Below, one piece after another: positions 9,982-30,078 of a DNA stretch of 64,000 bases; the stretch's first letter is position 1; every line of letters begins with the position of its first letter. The DNA is from Vibrio sp. JC009. Its GTDB lineage: Bacteria; Pseudomonadota; Gammaproteobacteria; Enterobacterales; Vibrionaceae. Location: contig NZ_CP092107.1 in the NCBI RefSeq assembly GCF_029016485.1, positions 496,001-560,000 on the forward strand. Reading direction: 5' to 3'. The notes under the pieces were generated by a model, which was not told the origin of the DNA, did not search any database, and saw only the letters and a list, made by a program, of their open reading frames with translations. The position numbers and the translations under genes were made by a program.

Positions 9982-10212
9982 ATGAATAATATAACCCAGC
10001 AACTGAAGGCTCTGTCTATGTATGAGTGGCTGCTTATCACAGCAGGAATGCTGCTTGGCGCATGGCTCAACTCCCCTTTGATTCAGGATATCATCGCCTA
10101 CCACCAGCACGGCGTTCAGATTGATGTCAGCTATACCTTGCTTCTGATTTCACTGCACCTGGCAGTACCTTTGCTACTGGCTATCGATCTGTTTTTTTTC
10201 AGCGAACAGTGA
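9982..10212 (+). CDS. Small membrane protein of unknown function
   Basis: This 76-residue protein has two hydrophobic helices, roughly residues 16-36 and 50-73, separated by a short polar loop (YHQHGVQID). A strong ribosome site GGAGGTGG ends four bases before the ATG, which supports it as a real gene. No known family is recognised. The Crp/Fnr-like gene follows about 120 bp later on the same strand, but a TATAAT-like box around 10292 suggests that gene has its own promoter. The last residues (IDLFFFSEQ) are strongly hydrophobic. Confidence 0.6.
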   Translation: MNNITQQLKALSMYEWLLITAGMLLGAWLNSPLIQDIIAYHQHGVQIDVSYTLLLISLHLAVPLLLAIDLFFFSEQ

Positions 10213-10332
10213 CCTTTGAAGCAGATGCTTGACTGGTACAATAAGCATTCCGGTTCAACGTGTACAGCTATTCTCGCCCATTGTCTATTCGCTTATAATG
10301 GTACTTGGGAAGGTCAATTAGGTACTGGGAAT

Positions 10333-10872
10333 TTGGACAATACACAATACATATGGCAAGAACTGAAACCATATGCGAAAAAGCTAGACTTGAAGAAAAA
10401 AGACATCTTGATTGAGGAAGGAAGAATCGGAAAACAGCTATATTACGTTAACGAGGGCTGTCTTAGATCTTGGTTTAATCACGATGGAAAGGACGTATCT
10501 TTTCAGTTTTTCCTCGAAGGTCAATTTGTCTCGTCATTTGAAAGTTTAATGTTTCGTGAACCAAGCCCCTATACTATCGAGAGTATCTTACCTTCTGTTG
10601 TTTACGCCATGCCAGTAGATACTTTTAAAGCTAAAATTCAAAGCTCCCATGAATTGAAAGATGCCGCTTTTCAGATTATTGCTGATCGTTTGCGTCATTA
10701 TCAAAGGTTGTTCCTTTCGCGGATTAAAGATACTCCACAGGAAAGGTATCAAGAATTGATTGCTCAACAACCTGAACTTATTCGCATGATTCCTCAACAC
10801 TACATAGCGTCGTATCTTGGTATTACTTCCGTATCCTTAAGCCGAATCAGGTGTCGAAAAACGGATAATTGA
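10333..10872 (+). CDS. Crp/Fnr-family transcription regulator
   Basis: The protein is about 179 residues from the TTG at 10333. An N-terminal cyclic-nucleotide-binding-type beta-roll is visible in KKDILIEEG, YYVNEGCLRSWF, VSFQFFLEGQFV and SPYTIESI. A long dimer helix (AFQIIADRLRHYQRLFLSR) follows, then a winged HTH with IPQHYIASYLGITSVSLSRI. No FNR-type cysteine cluster is seen. The frame opens further upstream at 10216 (another TTG), but a TATAAT-like box near 10292 would place transcription after that start and the upstream residues do not fit the family. The flavodoxin-fold reductase follows 74 bp later and is a candidate target. Confidence 0.78.
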   Translation: MDNTQYIWQELKPYAKKLDLKKKDILIEEGRIGKQLYYVNEGCLRSWFNHDGKDVSFQFFLEGQFVSSFESLMFREPSPYTIESILPSVVYAMPVDTFKAKIQSSHELKDAAFQIIADRLRHYQRLFLSRIKDTPQERYQELIAQQPELIRMIPQHYIASYLGITSVSLSRIRCRKTDN

Positions 10873-10946
10873 TAACATATGTTATCGTTGGTTTGTGATT
10901 CTCCCCTTTATATTTAGCTCTGTTTTCAAAAAAATGAGATAGAGCC

Positions 10947-11558
10947 ATGCGTGTATTAGTTGTATTTAACCATCCTTATGACGGGAGCTTCTGTAATTCC
11001 ATCCTTGAATCTGTAAAAAGTGGCTTATCGGAAGGTTGCCATGAAATCGATTTAATCCACTTGGACAAAGATCAGTTTGACCCCGTAATGAGAGCAAAAG
11101 ACTTACAGGCATTTACACTAGCCAGAACTGAGCCTGAAAGAGCTTATGCACTTTTGGATGAGCAAGTGTTAGATTACAAGGATCGAATAGAACGAGCAGA
11201 CCATATGGTATTTATATTCCCAATTTGGTGGGAACTCATGCCTGCTTTGACCAAAGGATTTATCGACAAACTAGTTTTTCCTGGTATCGCGTACGACTAC
11301 AACGAAAAGGGAACCAGAATGTTCTCTAAACTTAGTAAATTACAAAGCGTGACAATGATTACAACAATGAATACTCCATCGGTCGCTTATCGACTGCTTT
11401 TCGGAAATGCAATTAAAAAAGCGTTTCTGCTCGGTACATTTTGGAAAATTGGGATCAAGAAACGCAAATGGATAAATCTTACCTACGTGAAGTTCACCAC
11501 CGATAAAAAAAGAGCGAAATGGTTAGGAGATATCAGCACGCATTTTTCAACTATCTAA
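10947..11558 (+). CDS. Flavodoxin-fold NAD(P)H oxidoreductase
   Basis: This 203-residue protein belongs to the NAD(P)H dehydrogenase (quinone) flavodoxin-like superfamily (KefF/YwrO/MdaB type). The start MRVLVVFNHPYDGSF is the FMN-binding first strand and loop. The block MVFIFPIWWELMPALTKGFIDK is the family signature around the flavin. These enzymes reduce quinones or related electrophiles with two electrons and protect against oxidative stress. It lies 74 bp after the Crp/Fnr-like gene in the same direction, and the pair may be a regulator and its target. The specific substrate cannot be read from the sequence. Confidence 0.85.
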   Translation: MRVLVVFNHPYDGSFCNSILESVKSGLSEGCHEIDLIHLDKDQFDPVMRAKDLQAFTLARTEPERAYALLDEQVLDYKDRIERADHMVFIFPIWWELMPALTKGFIDKLVFPGIAYDYNEKGTRMFSKLSKLQSVTMITTMNTPSVAYRLLFGNAIKKAFLLGTFWKIGIKKRKWINLTYVKFTTDKKRAKWLGDISTHFSTI

Positions 11559-11603
11559 CTGATAAAGCAGCGGCAATTTACAGTGATAAGCTGATTGGTG
11601 GCA

Positions 11604-12028
11604 CTAACTAAAGTTAACGTACATCAAAACTAATAATTTGCTAAATCTAAAAGATTCTCCCACCAAGAATTGTTGCGCTTTCGATTTCTTACTATTCCCG
11701 ATGGCCTTTTCGGAGAATCCACAAATCACAGCATACTTAAACCCTGTCTCTGATAATTGATTTATTTGAGCGATTACGCTTCGTGCTTGTTCAAAGTTCA
11801 GCTCCGGTACATATCGGGTAACTGCTAATACGCAAACGCAAGCTGAGATTTAAATAACTGCCTTTGTACCAGATGAGAAGCCTGTGCTGGTGTAGATACC
11901 ACAACAAGGTCTATTTTGTCATCAAAAAAGCGCTCACTATCAAACGCATCTTTAAATTTGGGTTTTAAAGTGGACTCTGAATCTTGGTGGTTCAGACTGG
12001 AATAGATCTCTGAGTTCTTTGCCGCTTG
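11604..12028 (-). pseudogene. Decayed, frameshifted gene remnant of unknown function
   Basis: The 530-bp gap between the reductase and the antitoxin is not empty. On the minus strand one frame reads from about 12028 to a TAG at 11825-11827 and contains DKIDLVVVSTPAQASHLVQ. A second frame takes over at about 11845 with VTRYVPELNFEQARSVIAQI and runs to a stop at 11604-11606. Together they would give roughly 140 residues interrupted by one frameshift, with no start codon at the 5' end. The composition looks protein-like in both parts. I do not recognise the family. The region has the appearance of a damaged accessory gene. Confidence 0.35.
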
Positions 12029-12088
12029 TTATATGCTTAGCTTCCCCTTATAATTAATGCGCATAAATCACACGCATAGGTAATTCAC

Positions 12089-12334
12089 ATGAGAAATGCA
12101 TTTAATACACAGGCACCAAAAAAAGCGGCAAATTTAAGCTTGAACAGTGAGTTACTTGCAGAAGCTAAGCGCCTAAATATTAACCTTTCAGCAACAATGG
12201 AAAAAGCACTTGAAAAAGAAGTGAGCCAGCGCCTTAAAGCTGAGTGGTTAAAGCAAAATGCAGAAGCTATCGAAGCATGTAACGAGTTGACCGAAACACA
12301 TGGGCTATTTTCCGATTCTTACAGGGTATTTTAA
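12089..12334 (+). CDS. ccdA: CcdA-like antitoxin
   Basis: This 81-residue antitoxin has a ribbon-helix-helix start (KAANLSLNSELLAEAKRLNINLSA) that binds the operator DNA. The C-terminal half (QRLKAEWLKQNAEAIEACNE) resembles the CcdA tail that wraps CcdB and frees gyrase. Its stop overlaps the start of the next gene by one base, the usual translational coupling of this module. It lies in an AT-rich accessory stretch next to a decayed gene, consistent with a mobile or formerly mobile cassette. The symbol rests on similarity in length, order and motifs. Confidence 0.85.
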   Translation: MRNAFNTQAPKKAANLSLNSELLAEAKRLNINLSATMEKALEKEVSQRLKAEWLKQNAEAIEACNELTETHGLFSDSYRVF

Positions 12335-12651
12335 TGTCACAGTTTGAATTGTATAAAAATAACGACAAGAGTACGGCAACCGCTTATCCTTACTTTGTTG
12401 ATATACAAAATGAACTTCTTGATACGCTAAATACTAGGCTTGTCATTCCGTTGACGCCAGTAGAGTTGCTGGAGAAAAAGGTGCCAAGTCATTTGTGTCC
12501 GATAGTTCACATAAATGAGGGAGACTTCGTAATTCTGACACACCAGATGGCAAGCATCCCTACAAAAAACTTAAAAGAACCAGTTAATGAACTAAGTACG
12601 TTTAGAAATGAGATCATCTCTGCCATCGATTTTTTGATTACAGGCATATAA
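12334..12651 (+). CDS. ccdB: CcdB-like gyrase-poisoning toxin
   Basis: This 105-residue protein has the CcdB outline: QFELYKNNDKST at the start, YPYFVDIQNELLDTLNTRLV, PVEL, LCPIVHINEGDFVILTHQMA, and a C-terminal helix FRNEIISAIDFLITGI. In CcdB this last helix, which ends in a conserved WGI-type tripeptide, contacts GyrA; here the end is TGI, so the Trp is not kept. The ATG overlaps the antitoxin stop as TAATG. Overall length and frame are intact, so the toxin could be active, but the altered C-terminal tripeptide makes activity uncertain. Confidence 0.85.
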   Translation: MSQFELYKNNDKSTATAYPYFVDIQNELLDTLNTRLVIPLTPVELLEKKVPSHLCPIVHINEGDFVILTHQMASIPTKNLKEPVNELSTFRNEIISAIDFLITGI

Positions 12652-12768
12652 CACCTAACTGGCAAGTCTGCACTTGATAAACAACGCTTCTGAAATGCGA
12701 ATGCTGTTACATGTTAGCTTAGGTCGAGTTACTCCGCCCACACCGTCAAATCGTATGAGTGACTACAA

Positions 12769-13548
12769 CTAATCATCAATGACAGGTATTCGATTATTGA
12801 TTTCCTCAATCTCACCATTTTCATGCATCTGCTTCAATGCCTCAGTTAACAAGGGCAGTAATTTGATATGTTTCTTATGGACATAGTGATAGAGAACGGT
12901 TTTGTGAATGGCAGGCTCTAAGCGAACAACATTTATCGCCCCCAACATTTCAAACAACTCATCTCCGATATGCCCCAGAATCACTGCATCGCTGCGTCCA
13001 GACTCAAGATGCATTGCCACTTGGTCTGAAGAAGTAAACTGGTTGGTATTCAACTGTTGCGCGTTTAAAGCATATTCAGCGAAAAGAACACCTCTTCTAT
13101 AACTTACCGTATAGTCTTTAGGGATGCTCTCAAAGCCATCTAAATTGAAAACTTTGTCTCTCTTAACATAGAGATGCATTAGATCTGTTCTAAGTGGCAC
13201 ATCTACCATCACAAGGTTATGAAACTTTTTTTCAATCCCTTTTACCCGAAATGCTTCAGCGTCAGCACGCCCCCCATTTACATAGAGAACACTACGCCTA
13301 TGAGGAATATCTGTAAATACAACCGGCACGCCAGCTAATTGGTAGGCGCGCTTTAATACAGCTTTAACTGCAGGCGTAGGAGGTGCATCTTTGTTAATTG
13401 CGACAACAATAGGATTTTGAGCGTAACTCAGCTGTGAAATCAGAAACGACAGAATTAAAATTAAGGAACTCATGCACTTTATTGCGGCCGCTCGAAATAT
13501 GTACATATCCATTCTCTTTGTTTTGTGCTTAGCATAATTATACTTCAT
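12769..13548 (-). CDS. Periplasmic solute-binding-like protein (SBP_bac_3 type)
   Basis: This protein of about 259 residues has a signal peptide ending near SQLSYAQ. The mature part looks like a family-3 solute-binding domain: PIVVAINKDAPP, RAYQLAGVPVVFTDIPHRRS, a YRRGVLFAEYAL segment, and a SGRSDAVILGHIGDELF second-lobe signature. No ABC permease or ATPase is next to it. Similar stand-alone proteins are common in Vibrio and are often annotated as transporter substrate-binding domain proteins without proof. The start could be at a downstream ATG (13512 or 13506), where AAAGAGA lies upstream. A similar orphan is at 37478-38287. Confidence 0.7.
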   Translation of the reverse strand: MKYNYAKHKTKRMDMYIFRAAAIKCMSSLILILSFLISQLSYAQNPIVVAINKDAPPTPAVKAVLKRAYQLAGVPVVFTDIPHRRSVLYVNGGRADAEAFRVKGIEKKFHNLVMVDVPLRTDLMHLYVKRDKVFNLDGFESIPKDYTVSYRRGVLFAEYALNAQQLNTNQFTSSDQVAMHLESGRSDAVILGHIGDELFEMLGAINVVRLEPAIHKTVLYHYVHKKHIKLLPLLTEALKQMHENGEIEEINNRIPVIDD

Positions 13549-13619
13549 AGCCCATTCGGGGGGGCCATAATTTTAATTTGAGCTTATATGCACACACTGC
13601 GGATAGAGCTGAGTGATAG

Positions 13620-16298
13620 TCAGTCGGTCAGCGAACGGGCGCGAAGCAACTGAATCTGAGCAAGGACGGTGTCCAGTTCTGTGCTTAGTGCACTCTCAAA
13701 AGGCAGAGCCTGAACATCATCCATTGCTTTTAACTGTTTTTCTGAATCGGCAGCCAGTTTCTGTAACTTATAGGCACCAATCGTTCCCGCTGTACCTTTT
13801 AAGGTGTGTATCAGTCTGAGCACGGTTTCTTTATCTCTCTGCTGTATCGCATCAATGATTTCACTCACCGCCTCTTTTTCGTTTTCATAGAATCTTGAAA
13901 GTATTTTCAGATAACCTTTCTGACCCACACCAAGCTCGGCCATAGCCTGACGACTCTGCAAGGAATCGGCATCAGGTATTGATGTCACCGCTTGTGCCTC
14001 TTTACCGGCCGGACCTTGCGGCGCAATCCATTTTGTTAAGGTCGCAAACATCTTGCGGACATTAACCGGTTTGGCAATATGATCATTCATGCCCGATTCG
14101 AGCATTCTGTCTACGTCTTCTTTCATCACATTTGCGCTCATGGCAATGATGGGAATAGTTTTAAACCGGTGAAGATTGCGGATTTTTTCCGTCGCAGTAT
14201 AGCCATCCATAACCGGCATCTGACAGTCCATTAAAATAGCATCAAAAGTATCCATCCTGAGGATATCAAGCGCTTCCTGGCCGTTTTCCGCCAGAGTGAC
14301 TTTAATATTTTTATCCTCAAGTAAATCGATAACCACTTCCTGATTAAACTTATTATCTTCAACTAAGAGAATGTCCTTATTCACCAGTTTATTAGCCGAG
14401 GTGCTGATGGCATTCTCGTTAAAGGAATCACTGATTTCTGTCTCCTGCTCCTCCGCTACCTTATATTTCACGGTAAAGTAGAAATCACTGCCTTTGCCCT
14501 CTTCACTTTCAACCCCGATAGTGCCCCCCATAAGGGTTACCAGCTTTCTGCAAATGGAAAGCCCCAGCCCCGTACCGCCATATTTTCGCGTAGTGGATGG
14601 GTCGGCCTGATTAAAGGGGATAAACAACAGTTTCTGTTGTTCCCTATCCATGCCAATTCCCGTATCTTTAACCGAAAAATACAGCTGAACAGAAGCAGGA
14701 GTCATTTCTTTAATATGAACTGTGACCTGTATTTTTCCGTAATCGGTGAATTTAATGGCATTATTACAGAGATTAATAAGAATCTGCTTTAAACGCATCT
14801 CATCGCCAATCAGGCGGTTAGGAATATTCGGTTCAATATCAAAAATCAGAGCCAGCTCTTTCTCCTCAGCTCTGAAGCTAAGTATGTCATCAAGATCATT
14901 AAACAGATCCCTGATAAAGAATTCTGACTCTTCTAACTCTAACTTGCCTGCTTCCACTTTGGATAAGTCAAGGATGTCATTAATTATGCCTAATAACGAC
15001 TCTCCCGAGCGGTGGATCTTATTAATATAGTTATATTGCTTACTTGTTAATTGTGTTTGCAAAACCAGATGGGACATACCGATGATGGCGTTCATCGGCG
15101 TTCTTATTTCATGGCTCATATTTGCCAGGAACTGACTTTTCGTCTTGTTCGCCTGCTCTGCTTGCTCTGCAAAGGCTTTGGACTCTTCCATGGCGATATT
15201 GAGCTCATGGGTTCGGCTGTCAACCTCTGCCTCAAGGTTCCGCTGGAAGGAAAGCAGCTCTTCGTTTCTCTCTTTCTGGGTATCCAGCATCTTATTGATC
15301 AACTCACCCAAACGTCCCAGCTCATCCTCTCCCGTCACATTACAACGAGCATTTGAATCCCCCTGCTCAACTGTCCTGGCCAGATTTGATAAAGCATGAA
15401 TAGGATGGATAACCTGTCTGTTTATTGTCCACACCAAAAATACAAAGGCGGTTATCAAAATAATAGATACTAAGAAAATCGTATATTTAATGGTACTAAG
15501 CATAGACTGTGTTTGCTGATTTTTTTGCACAGCCATATTCAGAGTGGTCAGTTTTATCTGATTGAGATCTTCTTTTACTCGCTCGCTTAAGGATTCAAAC
15601 TGCTCGCCAACTTTATTTATTTCATTATGAGTTTCAAAGTTGGTATCAATCAGGGCGGTATAATTATCTAACAGTGTGGTTATGCGCCCTTGTACCACAT
15701 CTCTTGACAGCACTTTCCTTTTAAAAGCATTAGCAACAATTTTTATCGCCTTAACCTTTGACTCGTTTTTAAAAATGAAATAGTCATTTTTAAATCGTGC
15801 AATATTAAAAAGTTGACGGATAAGATAAATATCCGACTGCATTAACACACTGGAAACAATATTTTTATAGGTTTCATCAATTTCAGTCCGGTTAATGCGG
15901 TTTTTTGTCTTTAGCTGCAATAATTCAGCAAAAAGTGTCTTACTTTCATTAATACGCTTTATCACTTCCATAATAAGCGCACCTGTGTTTTTATCATCAA
16001 AGGTGGCATCGATTGACAGTAAAATTTCCTGCATCGAACGTAGCCTGTTATCGTAGGCTATTTCATCTTCCGCATTAGCCAGTCCTGAAGACAAAATTTT
16101 ACTTTGCAGATAATTGGCACTCTGAAATTCTTCTACCGCGCTGGTGATCTTTCTCTCTATTTGTACGGTATCGACAATATTCTCAATCTGGCTGGTCATA
16201 CGCTGATTAAGAACCAGCATGTATATAATTAATATACTACTAACCGCTATAGTAAATCCTACAATTATATCAAACCGTCTCTTAATACTGTTTGTCAT
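13620..16298 (-). CDS. Hybrid sensor histidine kinase (HK-REC-HPt)
   Basis: This is an 892-residue inner-membrane kinase of the BarA/TorS class. TM1 is about residues 11-30 and TM2 about 271-292, enclosing a roughly 240-residue helical periplasmic sensor. A HAMP (about 295-345) and a coiled-coil follow. The HisKA phospho-site is in [13 protein letters not shown] (His396). The ATPase has N-, G1- and G2-boxes ([24 protein letters not shown]). A receiver contains [11 protein letters not shown] (Asp691), and a C-terminal HPt domain has [10 protein letters not shown] (His831). The gene lies 66 bp after the tandem binding-protein gene, the layout of TorT-TorS and LuxP-LuxQ pairs. No response regulator with an output domain is nearby, so the phosphate must go to one encoded elsewhere. 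Confidence 0.93.
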
Positions 16299-16364
16299 TT
16301 TTATTATCCAACCTTACGGGAGCCAAAAATACCGGCTCCCTGACACCTTTGTTAAACATCTGAA

Positions 16365-18242
16365 CTAATACTGCTGAGTTCCCTGCTTAACTAACTGAAG
16401 ATCTACCTTAATTTCCTGTTCAACCGTCATACTTCTGATGATATCGGCGGAAATGGAGATAGCCATGCTTCCCATTAAATCCGGCTTTTGCGCTATTGTT
16501 GCGCTGATATCTCCCCGCTGAACGGCATCAACCACTTTGCTTATGGCATCAAACCCGACAAGTACCGGTGCTTCAAATGACATTTTATTGCTGCTACGCT
16601 CTGTTCCGTAAAAGCTCTGCAAAGCTTTCATCGCGCCAAATATCATTTCGTCATTATGTGCAAATACCGCATCAAAATGGTGACCACTCTCCAGCATCTC
16701 GGTTACTATCTTTTGCGATTTTTCTGCGTCAAAGTCGGCCGTTACCCGCTCAATCACAATATTTTTTCTGTTTTTAAAGAAGTCGTTAAACCCTTTACCA
16801 CGCTCATGTGCTGCGGATGTTCCCAGTATCCCCTGGATTTCAAGAATTCTGCCGCCTCCGGGAAGCTTCTCGCTGATGTATTCAGCAGCCATGCGCCCAC
16901 CCTGACTATTATCAGAGGCGATATGCGTGATGATAGTCCCGTCGATGGACTGACGGTCTACGGTGACCACAGGAATATTTTCGCTGTTTATCAATTCAAT
17001 ACCCGGACCAATAGTAACGCTGTCGGTAGGATTAATGATCGCCAGTTCAATATCGCTTTCCAGAGAGTTCAGTATCTGTTCCAACTGGCGGGCATTGTCA
17101 TTCTGAGCATCGGTGAACTCAACCAGCAGACCATGAAGCTCTGCGGTTTTCCTGGCACCATCAGCAAGCGTTGAGAAAAATGGATTGGCCTGATTCGATA
17201 TGCTGAACAGCACTTTTTTGCCAAAAGTGTCATGGGAAATAAGATTCAGGGGAGTCGGCTCATATCCGGGAAGCTCCATTCCCTGCAATCCCTGTATTGC
17301 CAGCTTCAGGCCATAAGCGCCCATCAAATCGGGATTTTGTTCAATGGTCGCTTTAATCTCACCACTAAACAGCTCTGAATGAACCTCAGGAATATTATCG
17401 TAACCGGTAATAAGAGGGCGGTTTTCACCATCAAAAAGTGCATTAATAGCCTGAAGAGCACCCAGAGCCATCATGTCATTGGCACAAGCAATAACATCGA
17501 CGGTTCCAGAGCCCTCTGATATAAACTCTGCAACTAAAGTCATCGCTTCATCGGCATGCCAGTTGGCGCTGATTGAGCCTACTGTAGTGAATGCACCTCC
17601 CTCAAGGCCGGATAAAAATCCGCTTTTCCGCAGATCGGCATTTTCGTTACCACGGATGCCTTCGATATAAAGAACATTTCCCCCGTCCGGCAACTTATTA
17701 CGCACATACTCGCCAACCATAGCTGAGCCTTTAAAGTTATCCGAACCAACAAAGGGGATGCGGATACCGGCTTCTCGTAAGCCCTGCTTATCCAGCGCAT
17801 TATCAATATTAATCACCACAATATTCTGTTCCAGCGCCTCTTTTAAGACAGGGATCAGACGCTTTGAATCAGCCGGAGCAATCACTATGGCCGGATATTT
17901 CTGCTGGATTAAACGCTTAACAATCGTAATCTGTTTCTGAACATCGGTTTCTCTTTCAACACCAAAAACTTCCAGCTGAATATCTTTGTTACTGGCGTAA
18001 TCCTTTGCTCCTTTCTCCATTTTAGCAAAGAAAGGATTAGACAGAGCCTTCATGACCAGAGCAACCTTAGGTGTCACATTTGTACCAGTTGCAGAGACAT
18101 CATTTGCCTTCACAGTATGGGAAAAAATAATTGTTCCAAAAAGCAAAACACTGAGCACCTTTAAAGACGGCCAGATACCTTGCCTAAAAGCACTTAATTG
18201 CCCGGGTGTTCCTTTAGTCCTGCCAAACTTAACGTTCCACAT
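16365..18242 (-). CDS. Tandem ribose-binding-like periplasmic protein (two PBP modules in one chain)
   Basis: This 625-residue exported protein has a signal peptide after an unusually long N-region (hydrophobic part SLKVLSVLLFGTIIF) and two complete peripla_BP_4/RbsB-like modules. The first starts near KVALVMKALSNPFF and the second near KKVLFSISNQANPFF. The second half keeps the RbsB ligand set: NPFF, VDRQ, HERGKGF, FAHNDEM, GFDA and IAQKPD. The first half has variants (INIDNAL, ANDMM, GYDN, IEQNPD), so it may bind a different sugar or none. I chose the ATG at 18240-18242, not an earlier one, because AAAGGAGAGAG precedes it. It is followed by the hybrid kinase, so a sensory role is more likely than transport; no permease is adjacent. 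Confidence 0.9.
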   Translation of the reverse strand: MWNVKFGRTKGTPGQLSAFRQGIWPSLKVLSVLLFGTIIFSHTVKANDVSATGTNVTPKVALVMKALSNPFFAKMEKGAKDYASNKDIQLEVFGVERETDVQKQITIVKRLIQQKYPAIVIAPADSKRLIPVLKEALEQNIVVINIDNALDKQGLREAGIRIPFVGSDNFKGSAMVGEYVRNKLPDGGNVLYIEGIRGNENADLRKSGFLSGLEGGAFTTVGSISANWHADEAMTLVAEFISEGSGTVDVIACANDMMALGALQAINALFDGENRPLITGYDNIPEVHSELFSGEIKATIEQNPDLMGAYGLKLAIQGLQGMELPGYEPTPLNLISHDTFGKKVLFSISNQANPFFSTLADGARKTAELHGLLVEFTDAQNDNARQLEQILNSLESDIELAIINPTDSVTIGPGIELINSENIPVVTVDRQSIDGTIITHIASDNSQGGRMAAEYISEKLPGGGRILEIQGILGTSAAHERGKGFNDFFKNRKNIVIERVTADFDAEKSQKIVTEMLESGHHFDAVFAHNDEMIFGAMKALQSFYGTERSSNKMSFEAPVLVGFDAISKVVDAVQRGDISATIAQKPDLMGSMAISISADIIRSMTVEQEIKVDLQLVKQGTQQY

Positions 18243-18442
18243 CCAGCTCTCTCCTTTGCAAATTCCGTGCAGTTGCACATAAAATGAGCCTTTTCTGAAA
18301 AGGCTATTTATACCAGTGAAGCCACTAGATAATTAATAGTCGTTAGGCATAAGTTTAGCAAACACCATCAGGTAACAATGTTAAGCTTTACAGAGACTTT
18401 GTTTCGTGAGCCAGACCGAAAAAAGAACTTCGCAGATACAAC

Positions 18443-18469
18443 AAGGGCAGCTCAATGTGAGCTGCCCTT
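18443..18469 (-). terminator. Intrinsic terminator-like hairpin after the acetyltransferase
   Basis: A 12-bp perfect stem, AAGGGCAGCTCA at 18443-18454 and TGAGCTGCCCTT at 18458-18469, lies 27 bases downstream of the end of the acetyltransferase gene. The T-tract is weak. It would close the long minus-strand oligosaccharide operon. Confidence 0.6.
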
Positions 18470-18495
18470 AATTTCTTCAATATGAATATGATGAA

Positions 18496-19056
18496 TTAGT
18501 TATCTATGCTTTTGATAACCCGGCACGGATTACCCGCTGCAACCACATTGGCCGGAACATCTTTGGTGACCACAGCACCAGCTCCAATAACAGTATTGTC
18601 GCCAATGGTCACGCCCGGACAGATTATCGCTCCGCCCCCAACCCAAACATTGTTACCAATCTTGATTGGCAGACCAAATTCAACGCCTTCTTCAACACGC
18701 CCTTTCACATCAATTGGGTGGCCGGCAGTGTAAACCTGAACATTGGGCGCAAACATAACGTTATCACCAATCTCAATGGTGTTTACATCCAGCAATACGC
18801 AGTTAAAGTTCGCATAGAAGTTCTTTCCGGCGATAATGTTGCCGCCATAGTCGCACCTGAATGGAGGCTCAAGATAAAGCCCTTCTTTTGCGTTAGGGAC
18901 AAGCTCTGTGACGGCTTCTTTCCACTCTTCGCTGTTTGGCAGGCTGGCGTTAAGTTTTTGCATCACCTTCCGGCAGTGGATACGCTCTGCGACAAGCTGC
19001 TCATCCCAGGCCTGATACGGTTCACCCGCCAGCATTTTTTCTTTTTCTGTTCTCAT
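18496..19056 (-). CDS. Maltose/galactoside O-acetyltransferase family (hexapeptide repeat)
   Basis: This 186-residue left-handed beta-helix enzyme has the N-terminal Mac domain (EKMLAGEPYQAWDEQL, which resembles Maa/LacA), then a run of hexapeptide repeats from about residue 68. The catalytic His is in VYTAGHP. The C-terminal end is GNPCRVIK. Such enzymes transfer acetyl from acetyl-CoA to non-metabolisable or surplus sugars, usually for detoxification. It lies 34 bp after the GH32 gene in the same direction and is probably the last gene of the operon. The exact sugar acceptor cannot be decided. Confidence 0.9.
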   Translation of the reverse strand: MRTEKEKMLAGEPYQAWDEQLVAERIHCRKVMQKLNASLPNSEEWKEAVTELVPNAKEGLYLEPPFRCDYGGNIIAGKNFYANFNCVLLDVNTIEIGDNVMFAPNVQVYTAGHPIDVKGRVEEGVEFGLPIKIGNNVWVGGGAIICPGVTIGDNTVIGAGAVVTKDVPANVVAAGNPCRVIKSIDN

Positions 19057-19090
19057 TTTTTTCCCGTTAAATATTAATAAATAACAACGA

Positions 19091-20563
19091 CTACCTTCTG
19101 GTTGTCACTGAAAAAAGCGCAATAGCTCCCTTACTGACAGAAATCGATGGCAACACGTCAACAGGATCAGCAAATACAAGGTTTGTAAAACTGTATTCAC
19201 CATCATTAATTAGCATTTCCAGCGAACCGTTATCGGTAAGGAGATCCAGCTTCATTTTTGAATCCAACGGGAGTTTAATCCTGTATTGATGCGGAAAATG
19301 TGCATCAATTCTCTCTTTTCCAAACCGACCTATACGTTTGCTCAATATTTCAACGTACTCACCCTTTCTGAGCAATGTAAAACCCGCTTCTCTGCCTGAA
19401 TATAAGTCGACTGTACATTCACTGTCTTCTTTCAGTTCAACTTCAAGCGATGTGAGCTGTGGCTGATTTGTCATCTCACAGGCAAATTTTTCACCTGCAG
19501 TTAAAGTGATATTCTGAGTCAGGTACTCCTTTTCTAACGGCAGATAACTGCGCAGCTCATTTACAAACCTTTGTCCCAAACGTATTCCTGCCGGTGATTC
19601 AAAAAGAAACAGCTCACGCGGCATCGCCATGGAACTGCGGAACACCTCCGTCGGCAGCTCCAGAGAATACTGATGATTACTCATCCAGGTGCTGACGATT
19701 CTCCGCCCGTCTTTGGCAGGAATATCCGAGAAAGACTGAGTCGCGTAATAGTCGCGGCCGAAATCGAGCCAGAGTGTTTCATCTTCTGCGTTTTCGCTGG
19801 TAAATACCTGACCATCAAAATCACCGATAAAGTACTGGGTGCCGGCGCCCCCGCAGTGAGCCCCCTCACCAATGCCTACCACCAGCACCCAGCGAACCTT
19901 ATCCGTACCCTCAACAACCAGAGGAAACAGATCCGGACACTCCCACGGCCCTTTGCTATGCGCGCCATAGCGATAGCCAAATTCACTGACAAGCTCCCAG
20001 TGTAAAAGGTTCTCTGAAATATAAAATTCGATATGCTGACCACAGGAAACCACCATCACCCAACGCTGTGTCGCTTCATGCCAGATAACTTTAGGATCAC
20101 GAAAGTCCGGATTACCGCGAGCCGGAATAACCGGAGCGCCATTCTGATATTTTTTCCAGTGATAACCATCCTGGCTATAGGCCAGTGACTGAGCCTGGAT
20201 AGGATCATCAACCATCTCACCCGTTGCCAGCTTACGCTTGTTAACCACAAAAGAGGTATAAAAAGCCAGAAGCCCCGGTTTACCCTGAGCAAACAGACCA
20301 GAGGTGTTGTTGTGATCAACAATGGCACTGCCGGAAAAGCACATACCACTGTCATCGGGATAAAGCGCAGGCTCCAGCTCTTTCCAAGAGATCAGATCCT
20401 TACTGACCTTATGCCCCCAGTGCATCGGTCCCCACACCGTATCATTCGGGTAATACTGGTAAAACTGGTGATACTCTCCATTAAAGTAGACCAGACCATT
20501 GGGATCATTCATCCAGCCGGAATTTGGCGTCATATGTAGCTTTGGGCGGTATTTTTCACTCAT
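19091..20563 (-). CDS. GH32 beta-fructosidase (sucrose hydrolase/invertase type)
   Basis: This is a 490-residue cytoplasmic GH32 enzyme with no signal peptide. The nucleophile motif WMNDPNG has Asp20. The RDP motif is in NPDFRDPKVI, and the acid/base Glu is in WECPDLFPL. A C-terminal beta-sandwich follows from about residue 350. It splits fructose from sucrose-type linkages. It follows the porin gene by about 130 bp in the same direction as the ABC/GH65 genes, which points to fructose-capped oligosaccharides as the imported substrate. Its sequence differs clearly from the GH32 at 39490-40917. An extracellular levanase is unlikely. Confidence 0.92.
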   Translation of the reverse strand: MSEKYRPKLHMTPNSGWMNDPNGLVYFNGEYHQFYQYYPNDTVWGPMHWGHKVSKDLISWKELEPALYPDDSGMCFSGSAIVDHNNTSGLFAQGKPGLLAFYTSFVVNKRKLATGEMVDDPIQAQSLAYSQDGYHWKKYQNGAPVIPARGNPDFRDPKVIWHEATQRWVMVVSCGQHIEFYISENLLHWELVSEFGYRYGAHSKGPWECPDLFPLVVEGTDKVRWVLVVGIGEGAHCGGAGTQYFIGDFDGQVFTSENAEDETLWLDFGRDYYATQSFSDIPAKDGRRIVSTWMSNHQYSLELPTEVFRSSMAMPRELFLFESPAGIRLGQRFVNELRSYLPLEKEYLTQNITLTAGEKFACEMTNQPQLTSLEVELKEDSECTVDLYSGREAGFTLLRKGEYVEILSKRIGRFGKERIDAHFPHQYRIKLPLDSKMKLDLLTDNGSLEMLINDGEYSFTNLVFADPVDVLPSISVSKGAIALFSVTTRR

Positions 20564-20692
20564 GGGTAAATCTCAGTTTTAATGTTTCTTGCCAATGTAC
20601 TTTCGTAAAAGCGCATGAGTAAGAAGCATTGATAAAAAAACTTCCTCCGGCAAGACCCTCCGGAGGAAGAAAAAGGCATGGAGTTTGCCGGA

Positions 20693-21706
20693 TTAGAAGC
20701 TGTAGTTCAGACCGATGATACCTACAGTAGCAGTACCATCCATTCTTGAATTGATTCCTTTCTTGTTGAAATCAATCGTCTTATAGCTGGTTTCACCAAA
20801 AATACGCCACTGGTCTGTCAGAGGGTAGTTCGCTGAGATACCCACTTTTGCGTAATCTTCAGTCCACTCTGTGGCACCGTCAGATGCTCTTTGTTTCTCG
20901 AAGCCACCGAACTCACCCCAGATAGAAGCAGACAGTTTACCGAAGCTGCGCCAGATACCCGGCTTGATGATCCACTCAGCTTCTGAGTTTACCTTGCCTA
21001 CACCCTTGCCGTGCCATTCGCCTTCCTGGTAACGGAAGTTGATCCATGCACCCATGTTGTCAGCAATCTTGTAGCCAAATCCAGGTTCGATTTCCCAGTA
21101 CTGGAACTCACCCGCATCACGCTTATATTCCACGTGATACATCGCGTAGCCGTGAATATCCAGCTTATCTGTCAGCTGGTAGTTACCGAATACCTTACCT
21201 TCAGGAGTAGTACGCTTATCGATGCTTTCGCCTTTAAGAGCAAACTGCCAGCCCCAGCCGCCGCCATCAAAACCGTTGTATTTGTTTACCCATACTTCCT
21301 GAATTGAGTTCACACCACGGTTAAAACGGGCATGCTTCAGGTTGCCATTAAACAGCTCTTCACGAGCAGAGTAGAAACCAAAGCCCCAACCCTCAAGATC
21401 TTCGTGAGAGAAGTTACCCTGAGCCAGAGTGTATTTGATTTTACCTTCAGAGATGCCATCATCACGCTGAATGCGTTCAACTTCGATATTGGTGCCCAAA
21501 GAACCATGCAGCTTGCTGCTTTCCGGCTTTTCGTAACCAATAGCAGTCATAAGCTCAGCTTTGGAATATTCTTCCGCAAGTGCTGTCACTTTTGCTTTCA
21601 GTTCGGCTTCTTTCTCAGACTGAGTCATGTCTGCATCATTAGCGTAAATGTTGCCCGAAAATGATAGCGCTAATGCCACTGCTGCAGATACGGCTGTATT
21701 TTTCAT
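20693..21706 (-). CDS. OmpG-like outer-membrane oligosaccharide porin
   Basis: This 337-residue protein has a signal peptide (AVSAAVALALSFSGNIYA) and a long run of amphipathic beta-strands. It ends in GIIGLNYSF, the aromatic C-terminus of outer-membrane barrels. The alternation, the acidic N-terminal extension and the operon context match E. coli OmpG, which stands next to ycjV. The ATG at 21704-21706 gives the signal peptide; an earlier upstream ATG would add an unlikely 38 residues. The 297-bp upstream region contains a repeat element and, on the opposite strand, a candidate sRNA. Other families of oligosaccharide porin (KdgM-like) are possible. Confidence 0.75.
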   Translation of the reverse strand: MKNTAVSAAVALALSFSGNIYANDADMTQSEKEAELKAKVTALAEEYSKAELMTAIGYEKPESSKLHGSLGTNIEVERIQRDDGISEGKIKYTLAQGNFSHEDLEGWGFGFYSAREELFNGNLKHARFNRGVNSIQEVWVNKYNGFDGGGWGWQFALKGESIDKRTTPEGKVFGNYQLTDKLDIHGYAMYHVEYKRDAGEFQYWEIEPGFGYKIADNMGAWINFRYQEGEWHGKGVGKVNSEAEWIIKPGIWRSFGKLSASIWGEFGGFEKQRASDGATEWTEDYAKVGISANYPLTDQWRIFGETSYKTIDFNKKGINSRMDGTATVGIIGLNYSF

Positions 21707-21729
21707 AATAATTACCCTATTATCACGTT

Positions 21730-21855
21730 TGTAGTTGATGTTTTCCGCGCCAACGGAAAACGATTTATAACCTGCGCCAACAGGTCGTAAATAATGCGTT
21801 CTGAGATATTCAGGACGCATGAATCCCTGAAGCCTGCCTGTGAGCAGGCTTTTTT
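21730..21855 (+). ncRNA. Candidate four-hairpin small RNA opposite the porin leader
   Basis: Read on the + strand, four stem-loops follow each other. The first is GTTTTCCG (21740-21747) with CGGAAAAC (21754-21761). The second is ACCTG (21770-21774) with CAGGT (21781-21785). The third is an 11-bp stem, 21794-21804 with 21810-21820. The fourth is a terminator, 21830-21837 with 21844-21851, followed by TTTTTT. Loops 1 and 2 are both exactly CGCCAA. Stem 3 has one U-G pair only if + strand is transcribed; on the minus strand it would be a C-A mismatch. A TATTAT box at 21718-21723 is a possible -10; the -35 is poor. No known family is recognised. Confidence 0.55.
21830..21855 (+). terminator. Rho-independent terminator on the + strand
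   Basis: The stem AAGCCTGC/GCAGGCTT has a six-base loop and is followed by six Ts on the + strand only. No + strand gene precedes it, so it most likely ends the candidate sRNA at 21730-21855. Confidence 0.8.
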
Positions 21856-21875
21856 ATTATTTTCTTATCCTTTTA

Positions 21876-21999
21876 GGTTCTCCCCCTTTTCAAGGGGGAG
21901 TTAGAGGGGGTTAAGTCCACTGAAGCTATTCGGTACCACAGAACTTTATAGGTTCGTGGGATTAACCCCTCCCAGCCTCCCCTTGAAAAGGGGAGGAGC
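21876..21999. repeat. C-rich palindromic element (family B), second copy
   Basis: This 124-bp element begins GGTTCTCCCCC, has the perfect hairpin CTCCCCCTT/AAGGGGGAG at 21880-21900, then AGAGGGGGTT. It ends with the inverse, AACCCCTCCCAGCCTCCCC, and a second hairpin at 21977-21997. The pattern matches the copy at 1651-1839. It separates the ATPase gene from the porin and sRNA. Confidence 0.7.
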
Positions 22000-22003
22000 A
22001 AAG

Positions 22004-23140
22004 TCAGCTAGCTTGCTTAATTTGCGGCGGAAGTGTAATCAGATCATCCAGCTTCATTCCCCTTTCAAATGCATTACCCTGACTATCAAACAGGTGACAT
22101 TTTTCAGAAGGAATACGGATGTTCAGCTCCTGACCCACTTCAACATGCACCGTGCCCGGAACACGAACCAGCACTTCCTGACCACCTTTCACCAGAGAGG
22201 TGTAAAGCAGTGATTCCGTGCCAAGTCTTTCAAGACCTTCCACATGAACCGCTACACCTTCTTCCGCCAGGTGGATATCTTCCGGACGGATACCCAGAGT
22301 CATCAGAGCTCCCTGAGTTGCCGTGGTTGCATCCACATCGGCTTCGAAGGTGTAATCACCCACCTCAACCTTCGCTTTTCCTTCCAGCGCACTCTTCAGT
22401 GTTGCCGGGATCAGGTTCATCTTTGGTGAGCCGATAAAACCTGCCACGAACAGTGTTTTCGGGAAGTAGTAAAGATCAAGCGGAGAACCAACCTGTTCAA
22501 CCACACCGCCACGCAGCACTACGATTTTGTCTGCCAGCGTCATCGCCTCAATCTGATCGTGAGTGACATAAATCACAGTCGATTTCAGCTGCTTATGGTA
22601 TTCCGCCAGTTGCAGACGCATGCGAACACGCAGCGCGGCATCCAGGTTAGAAAGCGGCTCATCCAGCAGGAATAATTTCGGATTACGGACAATGGCACGG
22701 CCAATCGCAACACGCTGACGCTGACCACCGGAAAGCTGGCTTGGCTTCTGGTTCAGAAGCTTAGTCAGCTCCAGCATCTCAGCCACGTCTTTAATGGCCA
22801 CATCGATTTCGTTCTTGTTCAGCTTCTTCGCCAGTTGCAGACCAAATGCGATGTTTTCATAGACTGTCATGTGCGGATAAAGCGCATAGGACTGGAATAC
22901 CATACCGATACCACGGTCAGTGGGAGAAAGTGCATTCACCACTTCACCGTCCAGCATCATGTCGCCAGACGAGATCTCTTCAAGACCGGCAACCATACGC
23001 AGCATGGTGGATTTACCGCAGCCTGACGGCCCTACAAAAACAGTGAACTCACCATCTTCAATAGTCAGATTAGCGTCCTTGATGATATGAGCGCCGTCCG
23101 GGTAGATTTTATTGATATTATTCAGTTCTAAGCGTGCCAT
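22004..23140 (-). CDS. ABC transporter ATPase (MsmK/UgpC/MalK type)
   Basis: This 378-residue ATPase energises sugar ABC importers. It has Walker A GPSGCGKST, Q-loop MVFQSYALYPHMTV, signature LSGGQRQRVAIGRA, Walker B LFLLDEPLSNLDA and switch His in VTHDQ. A C-terminal regulatory OB-type region follows from about residue 235 (GSPKMNLIPA, LGIRPEDIHLAEEG). It corresponds to YcjV in the E. coli ycj-ompG locus. It is the only ATPase gene in the window, but two sets of ABC permeases occur, so it may serve both. It lies 22 bp after the beta-phosphoglucomutase gene. Confidence 0.95.
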   Translation of the reverse strand: MARLELNNINKIYPDGAHIIKDANLTIEDGEFTVFVGPSGCGKSTMLRMVAGLEEISSGDMMLDGEVVNALSPTDRGIGMVFQSYALYPHMTVYENIAFGLQLAKKLNKNEIDVAIKDVAEMLELTKLLNQKPSQLSGGQRQRVAIGRAIVRNPKLFLLDEPLSNLDAALRVRMRLQLAEYHKQLKSTVIYVTHDQIEAMTLADKIVVLRGGVVEQVGSPLDLYYFPKTLFVAGFIGSPKMNLIPATLKSALEGKAKVEVGDYTFEADVDATTATQGALMTLGIRPEDIHLAEEGVAVHVEGLERLGTESLLYTSLVKGGQEVLVRVPGTVHVEVGQELNIRIPSEKCHLFDSQGNAFERGMKLDDLITLPPQIKQAS

Positions 23141-23162
23141 TGTTGTTACCTTCTATAATTCG

Positions 23163-23795
23163 TTACAGGATCAGAGCAAGATCTAGCTTGCTAGTATCTT
23201 CAAAACGCCAAGTAGCGTGTCCGACACGTTCCTGGGGGCCGATGCCCACTACGCGCATTCCTGCTTCTTTGCCTGCGTCAACGCCTGCTTCTGCATCTTC
23301 AACCACAATGCACTCATCAACGTTTACACCTACCTGACCAGCAGCATGGATAAACACATCCGGAGCCGGCTTAGAGCGTGAAACCGACCAGCCATCGCCG
23401 ATAGCATCAAACAGAGGCGTCAGGCCAAGTTTGTGCAGGATCGGACGGGCGTTTTTACTTGCCGATGCCAGCGCAACCTTGATACCGCGCGCATTCAGCT
23501 CAAGCAGAAAGGCTTCAATGCCCGGAAGAACATCTTTCGCCGTAATGGTATTTAAAAGCTCAAGATAGTAGTTGTTCTTACGTTCCATCAGCTCAGCTAC
23601 TTTCTCTTCACTGATTTCTGTGCCGTTTAAAATGATGTCCAGTGATGCACGACGGGATACGCCGCGCAGCTGTTCATTAATCTCACGATCGAAGTAGTAA
23701 CCTTCTTCATCCGCCATACGCTTCCATGCCTGAAAGTGCAGCTCTGCGGTATCTGTGATAACGCCGTCCAGGTCGAAAATAAATGCCTTACACAT
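23163..23795 (-). CDS. pgmB: Beta-phosphoglucomutase
   Basis: This 210-residue HAD-superfamily enzyme converts beta-glucose 1-phosphate to glucose 6-phosphate. The nucleophile/acid pair is in FDLDGVITDTAELHF (Asp8 and Asp10). The cap loop has RGVSRRASLD, motif II is LASASKNA, and the final metal loop is VVEDAEAGVDAG. I chose the ATG at 23793-23795, since the protein then starts MCKAFIFDLDGV; it overlaps the GH65 stop by eight bases, as is common in such operons. It processes the beta-glucose 1-phosphate made by the inverting GH65 enzyme. It is the YcjU counterpart in the E. coli ycj locus. Confidence 0.93.
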   Translation of the reverse strand: MCKAFIFDLDGVITDTAELHFQAWKRMADEEGYYFDREINEQLRGVSRRASLDIILNGTEISEEKVAELMERKNNYYLELLNTITAKDVLPGIEAFLLELNARGIKVALASASKNARPILHKLGLTPLFDAIGDGWSVSRSKPAPDVFIHAAGQVGVNVDECIVVEDAEAGVDAGKEAGMRVVGIGPQERVGHATWRFEDTSKLDLALIL

Positions 23796-26130
23796 TGAAA
23801 GTTGCCTCAGTTGCTTCGATAAGTTGTGGCTGACCTGCGATTTCAATCTCTACAGGCATACCGTTAAATTCAGGGCGCTCTACTCTTACACTTGAGCCAT
23901 CCACTGTGATTTCCAGACGCTCACCTTTCCAGTAAATCGGGAAGTTCAGGCTATCCCAGCTTTCAGGAAGATTAGGCTTGATGCGCAGCTTGCCGCCCAG
24001 CATACGAACACCACCGAAGCCGTATACCACGCACTGCCACATGCCGCCGATAGAGGCTGCGTGGATACCGTGATCAGAACTCTTCATGTTCTGGCCGATA
24101 TCGATAGCTGCTGCCTGGCTGAACAGGTCGTAAGAAAGCTCAGGGTTGCCCACGTCACTTGCCAGAACAGAGTGAGTTGAAAGACTCAGCGACGAATCGT
24201 GCAGCGTCTTAGGCTCGTAGTAGTTCCAGTTTGCCAGCTTAGTCTCAAGGTCAAACTTGTCTTCAAGCTGCAGGAACAGAACCATAAGGTCAGCCTGCTT
24301 GGACACCTGCATTTCGTTAACCTGTTCAAGGTTGTAATCCTGGAACAGACCACCAACAAACGGCTGCTCTTTGTACTTAGTCAGGTCGATAACTTCTTTC
24401 TGCAGGTAAGTGTCATCCTGCGGGATAACCTTGTCTTCTTCGCGTGGCTGAGGAAGGTAGATATCTTCTACTTTTTCCAGCCACATCTTACGTGCCTGCT
24501 CAAGATCCAGCTTCTCGCTAAGTGCCGCCAGAAGTTCTGGGTTGTTCGCTGCCAGATCGTCGTAGTAACGGATTGCCAGACGGATATTTTCCACAACCAT
24601 GTAGTTGGTGAAGGCGTTGTTATCGATGTGCTCTTTGTATTCATCAGGGCCGATGACATTACAAATGCCCCACATCTCACGCTCTTCCAGCCACTCCAGA
24701 CGGCTTGTCCAGAAAGTAGCGGTATCAAACATGATCTCGTAGCCCATCTCGTCCATAAACTTCTGGTCGCCGGTGATCTGGTAGTACTGCCAAAGCGCGT
24801 AAGTGATGTCACAAGTGATATGCTGCTCGATAAAGCCGGACCAGATTTTGGTCGACTTACCCGTAATGATATCTACCGCACCCCATACAGGCGTTACTTC
24901 TTCACCTGTCAGTGCTGACTCCCAAGGGAACTGAGCACCGATGTAGCCGTTATCACTTGCTTTCTTACGTGCACCATCCAGCGTTTTGAAACGGTACTCA
25001 AGCAGGCTGCGAGCCACTTCCGGCATGGTGTAGATAAAGAACGGAAGCATAAATACTTCGGTATCCCAGAATGAGTGGCCCTTGTAGCCTTCACCTGAAA
25101 GACCTTTTGCACCGATACCAAAACGGGAATCGTGCATTGGTGTAAAGATGTTTAGCTGGTACTGCGCAAAGCGGATTGCCAACTGGTCGAAATCGCTGCC
25201 ACCAATAGTGATGTTCATACCATCCCAGCGACGGTCCCACTCAACGGCACTGTCAGCCAGCAGCTCATCAAAACGACGCTCAGCTGATGCTTTGATATTT
25301 TCCAGCGCGTGGCCACGCAGAGCCTGAAGCTCGTAGCCTTCAACATCAAATGCTTTATCACGTGAAGTGTGTACAACACCGGTTTTCTCTGTGGTCAGGG
25401 TTTCACCCGCTTTCAGTTCGCGGCTCAGGTTAACCCACACTTTACGGCGGTCCATCTGCAGAACAGGTTCGATTACCTCTTCAATACCATCAACAAACGT
25501 GCGGTGAGTAGTGATAAAGACAAAGTCTACCTTGCTCTCAGTGGTGTGCTGCAGCAGCTCAATAAAGCGCTTGTCATAGATACGCTTTTCACCTTCATGG
25601 AAGTGCTGAGCACCTGTGTTTGAAAGCTGAGCATCCACACCGGAACGGATTTCAACTGTCGCTTCGCAATCAACAGGTGTCACTTCTACCTGAAACGCCA
25701 TCAGGTGAAGGTTTGCCTGAGAGATAAAACGGCGGAAGCGCATCGCAAAGGTTTTGCCTTCGCTGTTTGTCCAGTTGAACTCACGGATAAGCTCACCGTT
25801 CTTCACATTAAGGCGACGTGAATACTTGCTCACTTCACCTGTTTCAAGGTGGAAACGGCGGCCATCGATAAAGATTTCGATAGCACTCATATCCGCAGCG
25901 TTCGGCAGCTCAGTTACTTCGTTCTCATCGAACTTGTTGAAAGTACCTGCAATAAATGTATTGCGAACCTGGCCTACGTACTTCTCTTCCGTAGCACTAC
26001 GGGTACCCATGTAGCCGTTACCCTGGCTCATTACTACTTCACATTTGCCCTGGAATGCTGAGTCGAATGCTGTCTCTTCAACGATCCAGTTTTTCAATTC
26101 GCCTTGGCCAGCGCTATAGTTCATAAACAT
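23788..26130 (-). CDS. GH65 disaccharide phosphorylase (YcjT/maltose-phosphorylase type)
   Basis: This is a 780-residue cytoplasmic inverting phosphorylase. The N-terminal beta-sandwich runs to about residue 270 and the (alpha/alpha)6 barrel follows. The acid residue is in GPDEYKEH (Glu497); KQADLMVLF, about 100 residues further on, is in the phosphate-binding part. HSFWDTEVFMLP is another signature. It cleaves an alpha-glucosidic disaccharide with phosphate to beta-glucose 1-phosphate plus a sugar. The substrate could be kojibiose, maltose, nigerose or trehalose; YcjT, in a similar operon, is a kojibiose phosphorylase. The ATG at 26128-26130 is nine bases after GGAG, so I chose it over an upstream start. 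Confidence 0.9.
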   Translation of the reverse strand: MFMNYSAGQGELKNWIVEETAFDSAFQGKCEVVMSQGNGYMGTRSATEEKYVGQVRNTFIAGTFNKFDENEVTELPNAADMSAIEIFIDGRRFHLETGEVSKYSRRLNVKNGELIREFNWTNSEGKTFAMRFRRFISQANLHLMAFQVEVTPVDCEATVEIRSGVDAQLSNTGAQHFHEGEKRIYDKRFIELLQHTTESKVDFVFITTHRTFVDGIEEVIEPVLQMDRRKVWVNLSRELKAGETLTTEKTGVVHTSRDKAFDVEGYELQALRGHALENIKASAERRFDELLADSAVEWDRRWDGMNITIGGSDFDQLAIRFAQYQLNIFTPMHDSRFGIGAKGLSGEGYKGHSFWDTEVFMLPFFIYTMPEVARSLLEYRFKTLDGARKKASDNGYIGAQFPWESALTGEEVTPVWGAVDIITGKSTKIWSGFIEQHITCDITYALWQYYQITGDQKFMDEMGYEIMFDTATFWTSRLEWLEEREMWGICNVIGPDEYKEHIDNNAFTNYMVVENIRLAIRYYDDLAANNPELLAALSEKLDLEQARKMWLEKVEDIYLPQPREEDKVIPQDDTYLQKEVIDLTKYKEQPFVGGLFQDYNLEQVNEMQVSKQADLMVLFLQLEDKFDLETKLANWNYYEPKTLHDSSLSLSTHSVLASDVGNPELSYDLFSQAAAIDIGQNMKSSDHGIHAASIGGMWQCVVYGFGGVRMLGGKLRIKPNLPESWDSLNFPIYWKGERLEITVDGSSVRVERPEFNGMPVEIEIAGQPQLIEATEATFNV

Positions 26131-26146
26131 CTTTAAAAATCTCCGA

Positions 26147-28649: not shown

Positions 28650-28660
28650 TCGCGCACCAG

Positions 28661-29893: not shown

Positions 29894-29953
29894 GACACCC
29901 TCGTTTAATGAATATATGTCTTCCCGAAAATCTGCGGAAATTATAGATCGAAA

Positions 29954-29971
29954 AACGTAAGCGCTTACGTT
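29954..29971. promoter_or_regulatory. LacI operator, 18-bp perfect palindrome
   Basis: AACGTAAGCGCTTACGTT is a perfect 18-bp palindrome with a central CG. It overlaps the expected -35 region of the minus-strand operon that starts with the binding protein at 29893. The regulator gene at 30079-31047 is adjacent, so it is the natural candidate to bind here. Confidence 0.8.
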
Positions 29972-30021
29972 ATCAAGATCACAAAAACGTAAAACACGTC
30001 ATTTGAGTGTCATAAGCACAA

Positions 30022-30049: not shown

Positions 30050-30078
30050 GGGGTTATTTATTCTCTGGAAAGTAAAAT

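Follow-up and report, generated by a model that had tools for sequence, protein, structure and literature searches.

The stretch of DNA analysed here, referred to as the window, comprises 64,000 nucleotides from Vibrio sp. JC009 (contig NZ_CP092107.1, positions 496,001 to 560,000) and encodes, on its minus strand, a tandem periplasmic binding protein (PBP) followed by a hybrid sensor kinase. The PBP gene (16365..18242, minus strand) specifies P0001, a protein of 625 amino acids (aa) without internal stop. We place its start at ATG 18242, which is preceded by a Shine-Dalgarno-like AAGGAG (18251..18256, minus strand, recognized by eye); the mechanical open reading frame (ORF) begins earlier, at GTG 18278. 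The N-terminus is, as judged by eye, an apparent signal peptide ending ...HTVKA/ND. Pfam detects two Peripla_BP_4 stretches (E 3.8e-103), and each module has its own matches in the PDB. The allose-type N-module (residues ~58-337; 17232..18071, minus strand) has 4yle as its best match over residues 57-336, followed by D-allose binding proteins (best entries 4yle, 5dte, 8wl5 and 1gub), and the ribose-type C-module (residues ~342-620; 16383..17219, minus strand) has 2ioy over residues 347-620, followed by RbsB entries (best entries 2ioy, 2gx6 and 1urp). These results bear out the initial annotation, which had described one secreted chain with two complete sugar-binding modules. P0001 also passes the NCBIfam RbsB model NF007936, with a whole-protein score of 349.4 over two stretches against a cut-off of 337, the C-module being the best stretch; automated naming could therefore call the gene rbsB, a transport protein.

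The kinase gene (13620..16298, minus strand) follows after 66 bp on the same strand and encodes P0002 (892 aa); adjacency and spacing are both as originally claimed. P0002 begins with a periplasmic sensor domain (residues ~33-270; 15489..16202), the membrane limits of which were set by eye and which belongs to no Pfam family. Pfam then assigns HAMP (residues 292-340; 15279..15425), HisKA (residues 387-451; 14946..15140), HATPase_c (residues 498-612; 14463..14807), receiver (REC; residues 643-753; 14040..14372) and Hpt (residues 799-879; 13662..13904) domains, all on the minus strand. The catalytic motifs appear intact by eye (HisKA SHEIRTP, REC LMDCQMP and Hpt HTLKGTAG). When five sensor sequences were scanned, all Pfam matches beyond HAMP were at E 0.003 or weaker, each in one of the five. 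Within the sensor, a central segment (residues ~134-217; 15648..15899, minus strand) is absent in three relatives without a PBP and is proposed as the docking part; 15 of its 86 positions are well kept (at least 80%), somewhat more than in the flanking parts (10 of 98 and 4 of 52).

The PBP gene was read together with the DNA that follows in 37 genomes, and each of them encodes this sensor domain in the adjoining downstream gene, on the same strand. The set consists of 26 genomes of the order of Desulfamplus, 10 of one gammaproteobacterial family and the window, read at 28 loci, at the contig-end locus L100 (86 aa of the sensor) and at 8 further loci. The PBP is a tandem in 36 of them, one being interrupted and one split over two contigs (genome G701, counted via L091, with L025 as the cut other half), and an N-module alone in the remaining one (L192). 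Gaps between the longest ORFs of the PBP and sensor genes range from -139 to 372 bp. The interrupted PBP gene (L137:6697-8441, genome G864) is broken into two reading frames, and the kinase gene after it reads through. With the sensor as query, matches were obtained in 14 of the 39 genomes searched in the gammaproteobacterial family and in 3 of 37 from a sample of the order. No conserved third gene was found across the loci; 12 of the 28 loci have a receiver- or kinase-type gene cluster near the pair, its position varying.

The PBP and the sensor have diverged together. Their pairwise distances correlate with r 0.83, a value reached by none of 2000 permutations. For a comparison with the kinase core as control we used 27 of the 36 pairs; six pairs with a short or cut PBP or sensor (L003, L005, L091, L137, L191, L192), two with other outputs (L004, L128) and L122, without a core match, were dropped. 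The N- and C-modules correlate with the central part of the sensor at r 0.80 and 0.90, with the two flanking parts at 0.82 and 0.87 and at 0.72 and 0.77, with HAMP at 0.72 and 0.85, and with the kinase core at 0.50 and 0.60; for L187 and L190 an overlong core stretch (536 aa) was used. Correlations of the sensor segments with their own kinase core are lower (r 0.55-0.69) than with the PBP modules (0.72-0.90). Of the two modules, it is the C-module that correlates more strongly with the central part, an argument against docking through the N-module alone.

The two genes also show correlated loss. Three sensors have gaps of 67-79 residues in the central segment, at 148-217 (G1100), 134-212 (G1101) and 148-214 (G1102) in window numbering, and in these genomes neither a PBP gene nor a remnant of one was detected within the 9-13 kb surrounding the sensor, and the genomes gave no match at 1e-80. 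A genome with the same genus code and a completeness of 96% (G1099) has both the tandem gene and a full sensor (L190). The lost sensor segment does not adjoin the PBP gene, and the losses therefore presumably reflect two deletions, probably in one lineage.

The two modules of P0001 are unlike each other. E. coli AlsB shares 34% identity with the N-module and 25% with the C-module; for RbsB the figures are 29% and 39%. The two modules are 27% identical to each other. In a quick tree of 85 rows, built with a simple model, the 34 N-modules and the 33 C-modules each cluster together (support 99 for both groups), and ten Chloroflexi modules and five reference rows fall outside both. Given the low identity and the separate, supported clades we discarded a recent internal duplication, and the groupings fit one fusion of two PBPs of different origin. 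Pockets were compared in 26 sequences, the 28 pairs minus two with PBP fragments (L091 and L137). Eleven residues of RbsB are, as we take them, its ribose contacts; nine of these are kept in all 26 C-modules, F355 in 25 and N353 in 23. K65, D147, R205, N255, D282 and Q302 of the N-module align with identical residues of AlsB, to which we assign presumed roles in the pocket, and are kept in 25 or 26 sequences. Other sampled positions vary more (e.g. R97 kept in 19, E200 in 21, R197 in 22, D378 in 19 and D505 in 21 of 26). On this alignment evidence, both pockets are conserved.

Genes for rbs-type transport are nearly absent around the pair. RbsA, RbsC, RbsD and RbsK gave no match at E 1e-3 in 30 stretches, positions 10000-22000 of the window included, and in 8 further stretches there was one weak RbsA match (25%, L190); apart from that match, a CUT2 ATPase and permease were not found as neighbours of the tandem PBP in these stretches. 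Tandem RbsB genes beside ABC (ATP-binding cassette) permeases belong to other clades; outside the Desulfobacterota loci, 24 of 24 ORFs of at least 540 aa have RbsA or RbsC within 3 kb, L060 being a single module in an over-long ORF. On gene context a transport role of the tandem PBP was set aside. That the protein serves an ABC transporter, its place beside the kinase being incidental, is highly improbable given the scarcity of these matches, the separate clades of the modules and the invariable sensor linkage, despite the double and triple RbsB chains found in rbs operons elsewhere, the RbsB score of P0001 above the cut-off, a sugar ABC cluster of a different type ~3.8 kb upstream in the window and an ABC cluster near the PBP in L190. 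The initial annotation would have been contradicted by ABC permeases beside the PBP gene in most relatives, or by a kinase not conserved with it; in the sensor-linked family neither was seen, and the sensor is conserved with the PBP. Linkage in 37 of 37 genomes, co-divergence beyond the control, correlated loss and the near absence of rbs-type transport genes lend joint support to the view that the two proteins work together, as the initial annotation had supposed. It is very likely, judging from these sequence comparisons, that they constitute a PBP-dependent transmembrane receptor with a fused, possibly two-ligand PBP, akin to TorT-TorS, XylFII-LytS and LuxP-LuxQ.

The candidate dual-ligand reading is based on the two conserved, unlike pockets, and P0001 possibly recognizes two sugars. 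We regard as rather doubtful, if possible, a receptor for one ligand, in which a single module senses and signals while the other, serving for structure or docking, retains its fold and pocket for other reasons. Such a receptor would account for genome G1097, which is without the C-module and keeps the N-module and a full sensor, and for the better conservation of the N-module (mean pairwise identity 0.59 versus 0.50 in the 26 sequences); it sits poorly with a C-module that retains nine of the eleven presumed ribose contacts throughout and that follows the central sensor segment more closely than its neighbour (r 0.90 versus 0.80). Also conceivable, and in our view unlikely, is a covalent pseudo-dimer that caps the kinase dimer and builds in an asymmetric state instead of reading two ligands. 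The presence of two unlike modules in one chain suits this idea, as does an asymmetry-to-symmetry switch that TorS reportedly undergoes, but the sensor is not detectably homologous to TorS.

Several observations weigh against the receptor formed by PBP and sensor. Among 17 sensor-bearing genomes, 13 have the PBP and four do not (G1098, G1100, G1101 and G1102); G1098 (75% complete, with the genus code of the other three) carries a full sensor, and a PBP was not found in it. The correlated loss is confined to one genus and to metagenome-assembled genomes (MAGs; G1100, G1101 and G1102) that are 73-82% complete, so it probably counts as one event. An ABC-type cluster lies upstream in L190 (upstream of the PBP) and in L213-L216, with an SBP_bac_8 protein in L215, and this cluster or protein may be an alternative partner of the sensor; the window has a sugar ABC cluster that includes a MalK-type ATPase and begins ~3.8 kb upstream of the PBP gene. 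In G1097 (L192:4862-5812) the PBP chain ends after the N-module, 4 bp before a full sensor gene, and the C-module was not found in the 8.5 kb fetched. Finally, a mirror-tree comparison cannot tell contact from the co-inheritance of neighbouring genes.

For the PBP-sensor receptor we propose the following mechanism. The tandem protein would be secreted, and the N-module, with its allose-type pocket, and the C-module, with its ribose-type pocket, would each bind a sugar, the identities of which we infer from the pocket types. The closed or open state of the PBP would then be communicated to the membrane partner at its periplasmic domain, probably by contact with the central segment acting as docking part. 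HAMP would relay the change to the attached output, which in the window would be a HisKA-HATPase-REC-Hpt phosphorelay to a response regulator presumably encoded elsewhere. A two-input logic, and the sign of the response, are likewise what we infer for this scheme. The natural losses, in one case leaving only the N-module and in others removing both the PBP and the central sensor segment, suggest where the parts touch.

The same sensor is joined to several kinds of internal signalling enzyme. Among the 37 partners, classified by Pfam with some HisKA and HAMP matches that pass E 0.001 and lie below the gathering score, 19 are kinases with one or two REC domains, four are PAS-kinase-REC proteins, four are kinases without REC, and two, the window and L125, are kinase-REC-Hpt proteins. 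Single cases are HisKA matched without HATPase (L122), a HisKA_2/HWE kinase with an adjoining receiver-like gene (L128, by eye) and SpoIIE without a kinase (Desulfonema magnum, L004); five were cut (L003, L005, L091) or not scanned (L100, L191). When 29 rows are labelled by output, with REC stretches counted in the label, the PBP tree requires at least 12 changes; outputs have been swapped, once to a SpoIIE phosphatase. We tentatively suggest, with more reserve than for the receptor itself, a portable two-input receptor head, in which an allose-type and a ribose-type PBP were fused once and, with a new sensor family, serve several outputs including the SpoIIE phosphatase. If so, one receptor would compute a function of two sugars, and a separate kinase per sugar would not be needed. 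An unlike module pair that is kept with its sensor across many genomes while outputs change offers a natural test system for two-ligand integration.

With TorT-TorS the pair shares an RbsB-fold PBP adjoining a HAMP-HisKA-HATPase-REC-Hpt kinase. The best NCBIfam kinase model for P0002 is that of TorS (TIGR02956), with 465.5 bits against a cut-off of 676.5 that is not reached, and P0001 scores below both TorT cut-offs (NF008185, 64 bits against 200; TIGR02955, 31.6 against 310). A TorS above the cut-off is present at another place in the window's genome. When 25 sensor rows were aligned with a TorS alignment by hhalign, the periplasmic part showed no profile similarity (probability 0.5%), and only the domain end, the second transmembrane segment (TM2) and HAMP align (94%). 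By these scores and by the comparison of periplasmic profiles, the pair does not belong to the TorS or TorT family. Of the description as a BarA/TorS-type kinase, the TorS-like domain order holds; in the periplasmic domain, homology to TorS was not detected and no Pfam family beyond HAMP is supported.

To our knowledge, the known PBP-kinase systems have one binding module per chain. TorT is single-module, and XylFII-LytS likewise has one PBP module per chain, whereas P0001 is a tandem; entries 5xsj and 5xss match P0001 much more weakly than RbsB and 4yle do. According to PMC6321045, XylFII, a sugar PBP belonging to the same superfamily, activates the sensor kinase LytS in D-xylose sensing, which resembles what we propose for the window pair, and LuxP-LuxQ is likewise a PBP paired with a hybrid kinase, for AI-2 sensing (PMC6321045). 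The LuxQ model covers only residues 369-756 of P0002, the kinase part, and the periplasmic Pfam domain of LuxQ was not reported in the Pfam scans of the sensor. The gene for the secreted PBP and that for a kinase with an extracytoplasmic domain are conserved side by side in 37 of 37 genomes counted from the PBP and in 13 of 17 counted from the sensor, one partner in the sensor-linked set being a SpoIIE protein instead of a kinase. The fixed fusion of two unlike modules, the sensor domain without Pfam name and the swapped outputs appear new; in open-licence papers, at the level of titles and abstract openings, no description of a tandem PBP paired with a kinase was found.

The initial annotation had suggested looking for tandem PBPs beside HisKA-REC-HPt kinases across the Vibrionaceae; the window's own family turned out to be the wrong place for such a search. 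Of its 329 genomes one has the pair, as against 26 of 389 in the order of Desulfamplus. The family search scored three candidates per genome and found the tandem protein at E 1e-60 in the window's own genome. A sensor model matched 311 of 324 genomes of the family at 1e-5, and among the matches listed only the window's own spans the full model; the others start at ~130 or later, mostly beyond 220, and correspond to the domain end, TM2 and HAMP. Among the 79 loci kept from a contig scan with exact peptides taken from the window's protein, the best were Desulfamplus (67%), two Desulfonema records and a Desulfobacteraceae MAG. At 1e-80, 27 of 389 genomes of the order matched, 24 nearly full-length, G701 split over two contigs, G864 interrupted and G914 over the C-half only; the last was taken as L048, an rbs operon with a lone RbsB, and left out of the count of 26. 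A sample of the class gave 3 of 369 (the window and two genomes of the gammaproteobacterial family), that family 10 of 39 with the PBP (G1097 over the N-module only), and a sample of the phylum 1 of 297, Desulfamplus itself; many of the relatives' genomes are fragmented. In a quick PBP tree of 33 rows, the window and Desulfamplus are sisters (support 100), and the gammaproteobacterial relatives form a group of their own (100), a pattern suggestive of a separate horizontal gain. The window copy was most likely acquired horizontally from a Desulfamplus-like source, to judge from this tree. Plasmid records gave 1363 matches, all below 60% identity, 414 of them covering at least 80% of the query; plasmid-borne relatives were rejected, the best 15 of the 1363 being single-gene places of ~0.8-0.95 kb, RbsB or unannotated, that were matched twice.

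Other arrangements of RbsB-type proteins were encountered in the contig scan. MAGs of Chloroflexi type (L006-L024, L026, L027 and L034; e.g. L022:4222-6930) contain ribose operons with double RbsB chains beside rbsC and rbsA, and chains of 872-902 aa in L019, L022, L026 and L027 are, judged by length, apparent triple RbsB modules. Like P0001 these chains fuse RbsB-type modules, but ten of their modules lie outside the N and C clades, their genes lie among rbsC and rbsA, and a kinase is within 3 kb in 0 of 24 ORFs. In Anaerolineae-type MAGs (L035, L047, L049, L051 and L065) a single RbsB is followed by a kinase, with receiver genes near and no rbsA or rbsC within 3 kb; the kinase of L035 is HAMP-GAF-HisKA-HATPase, another PBP-kinase arrangement.

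Downstream of the window's kinase, after 71 bp on the same strand, lies a gene for a weakly SBP_bac_3-like protein (12769-13548; E 0.0027, below the cut-off), which might be a further component of the pair; Desulfamplus has an M48 peptidase gene in its place. In the related loci L129, L130, L132, L133 and L134 a ketopantoate-reductase-like gene (by eye) follows the kinase, and all of these except L132 have more kinase- or receiver-type genes upstream. Upstream of the window's pair, on its strand, a sugar cluster (18496-31047) encodes GH32, an OmpG-type porin, a MalK-type ATPase, GH65 and a LacI-type regulator. Four of six genomes with a strong GH32 match were inspected; all four retain GH32, porin and MalK-type genes, and the pair was not seen in them. 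One of the four, L174, contains another kinase, 38% identical to that of the window over 343 residues.

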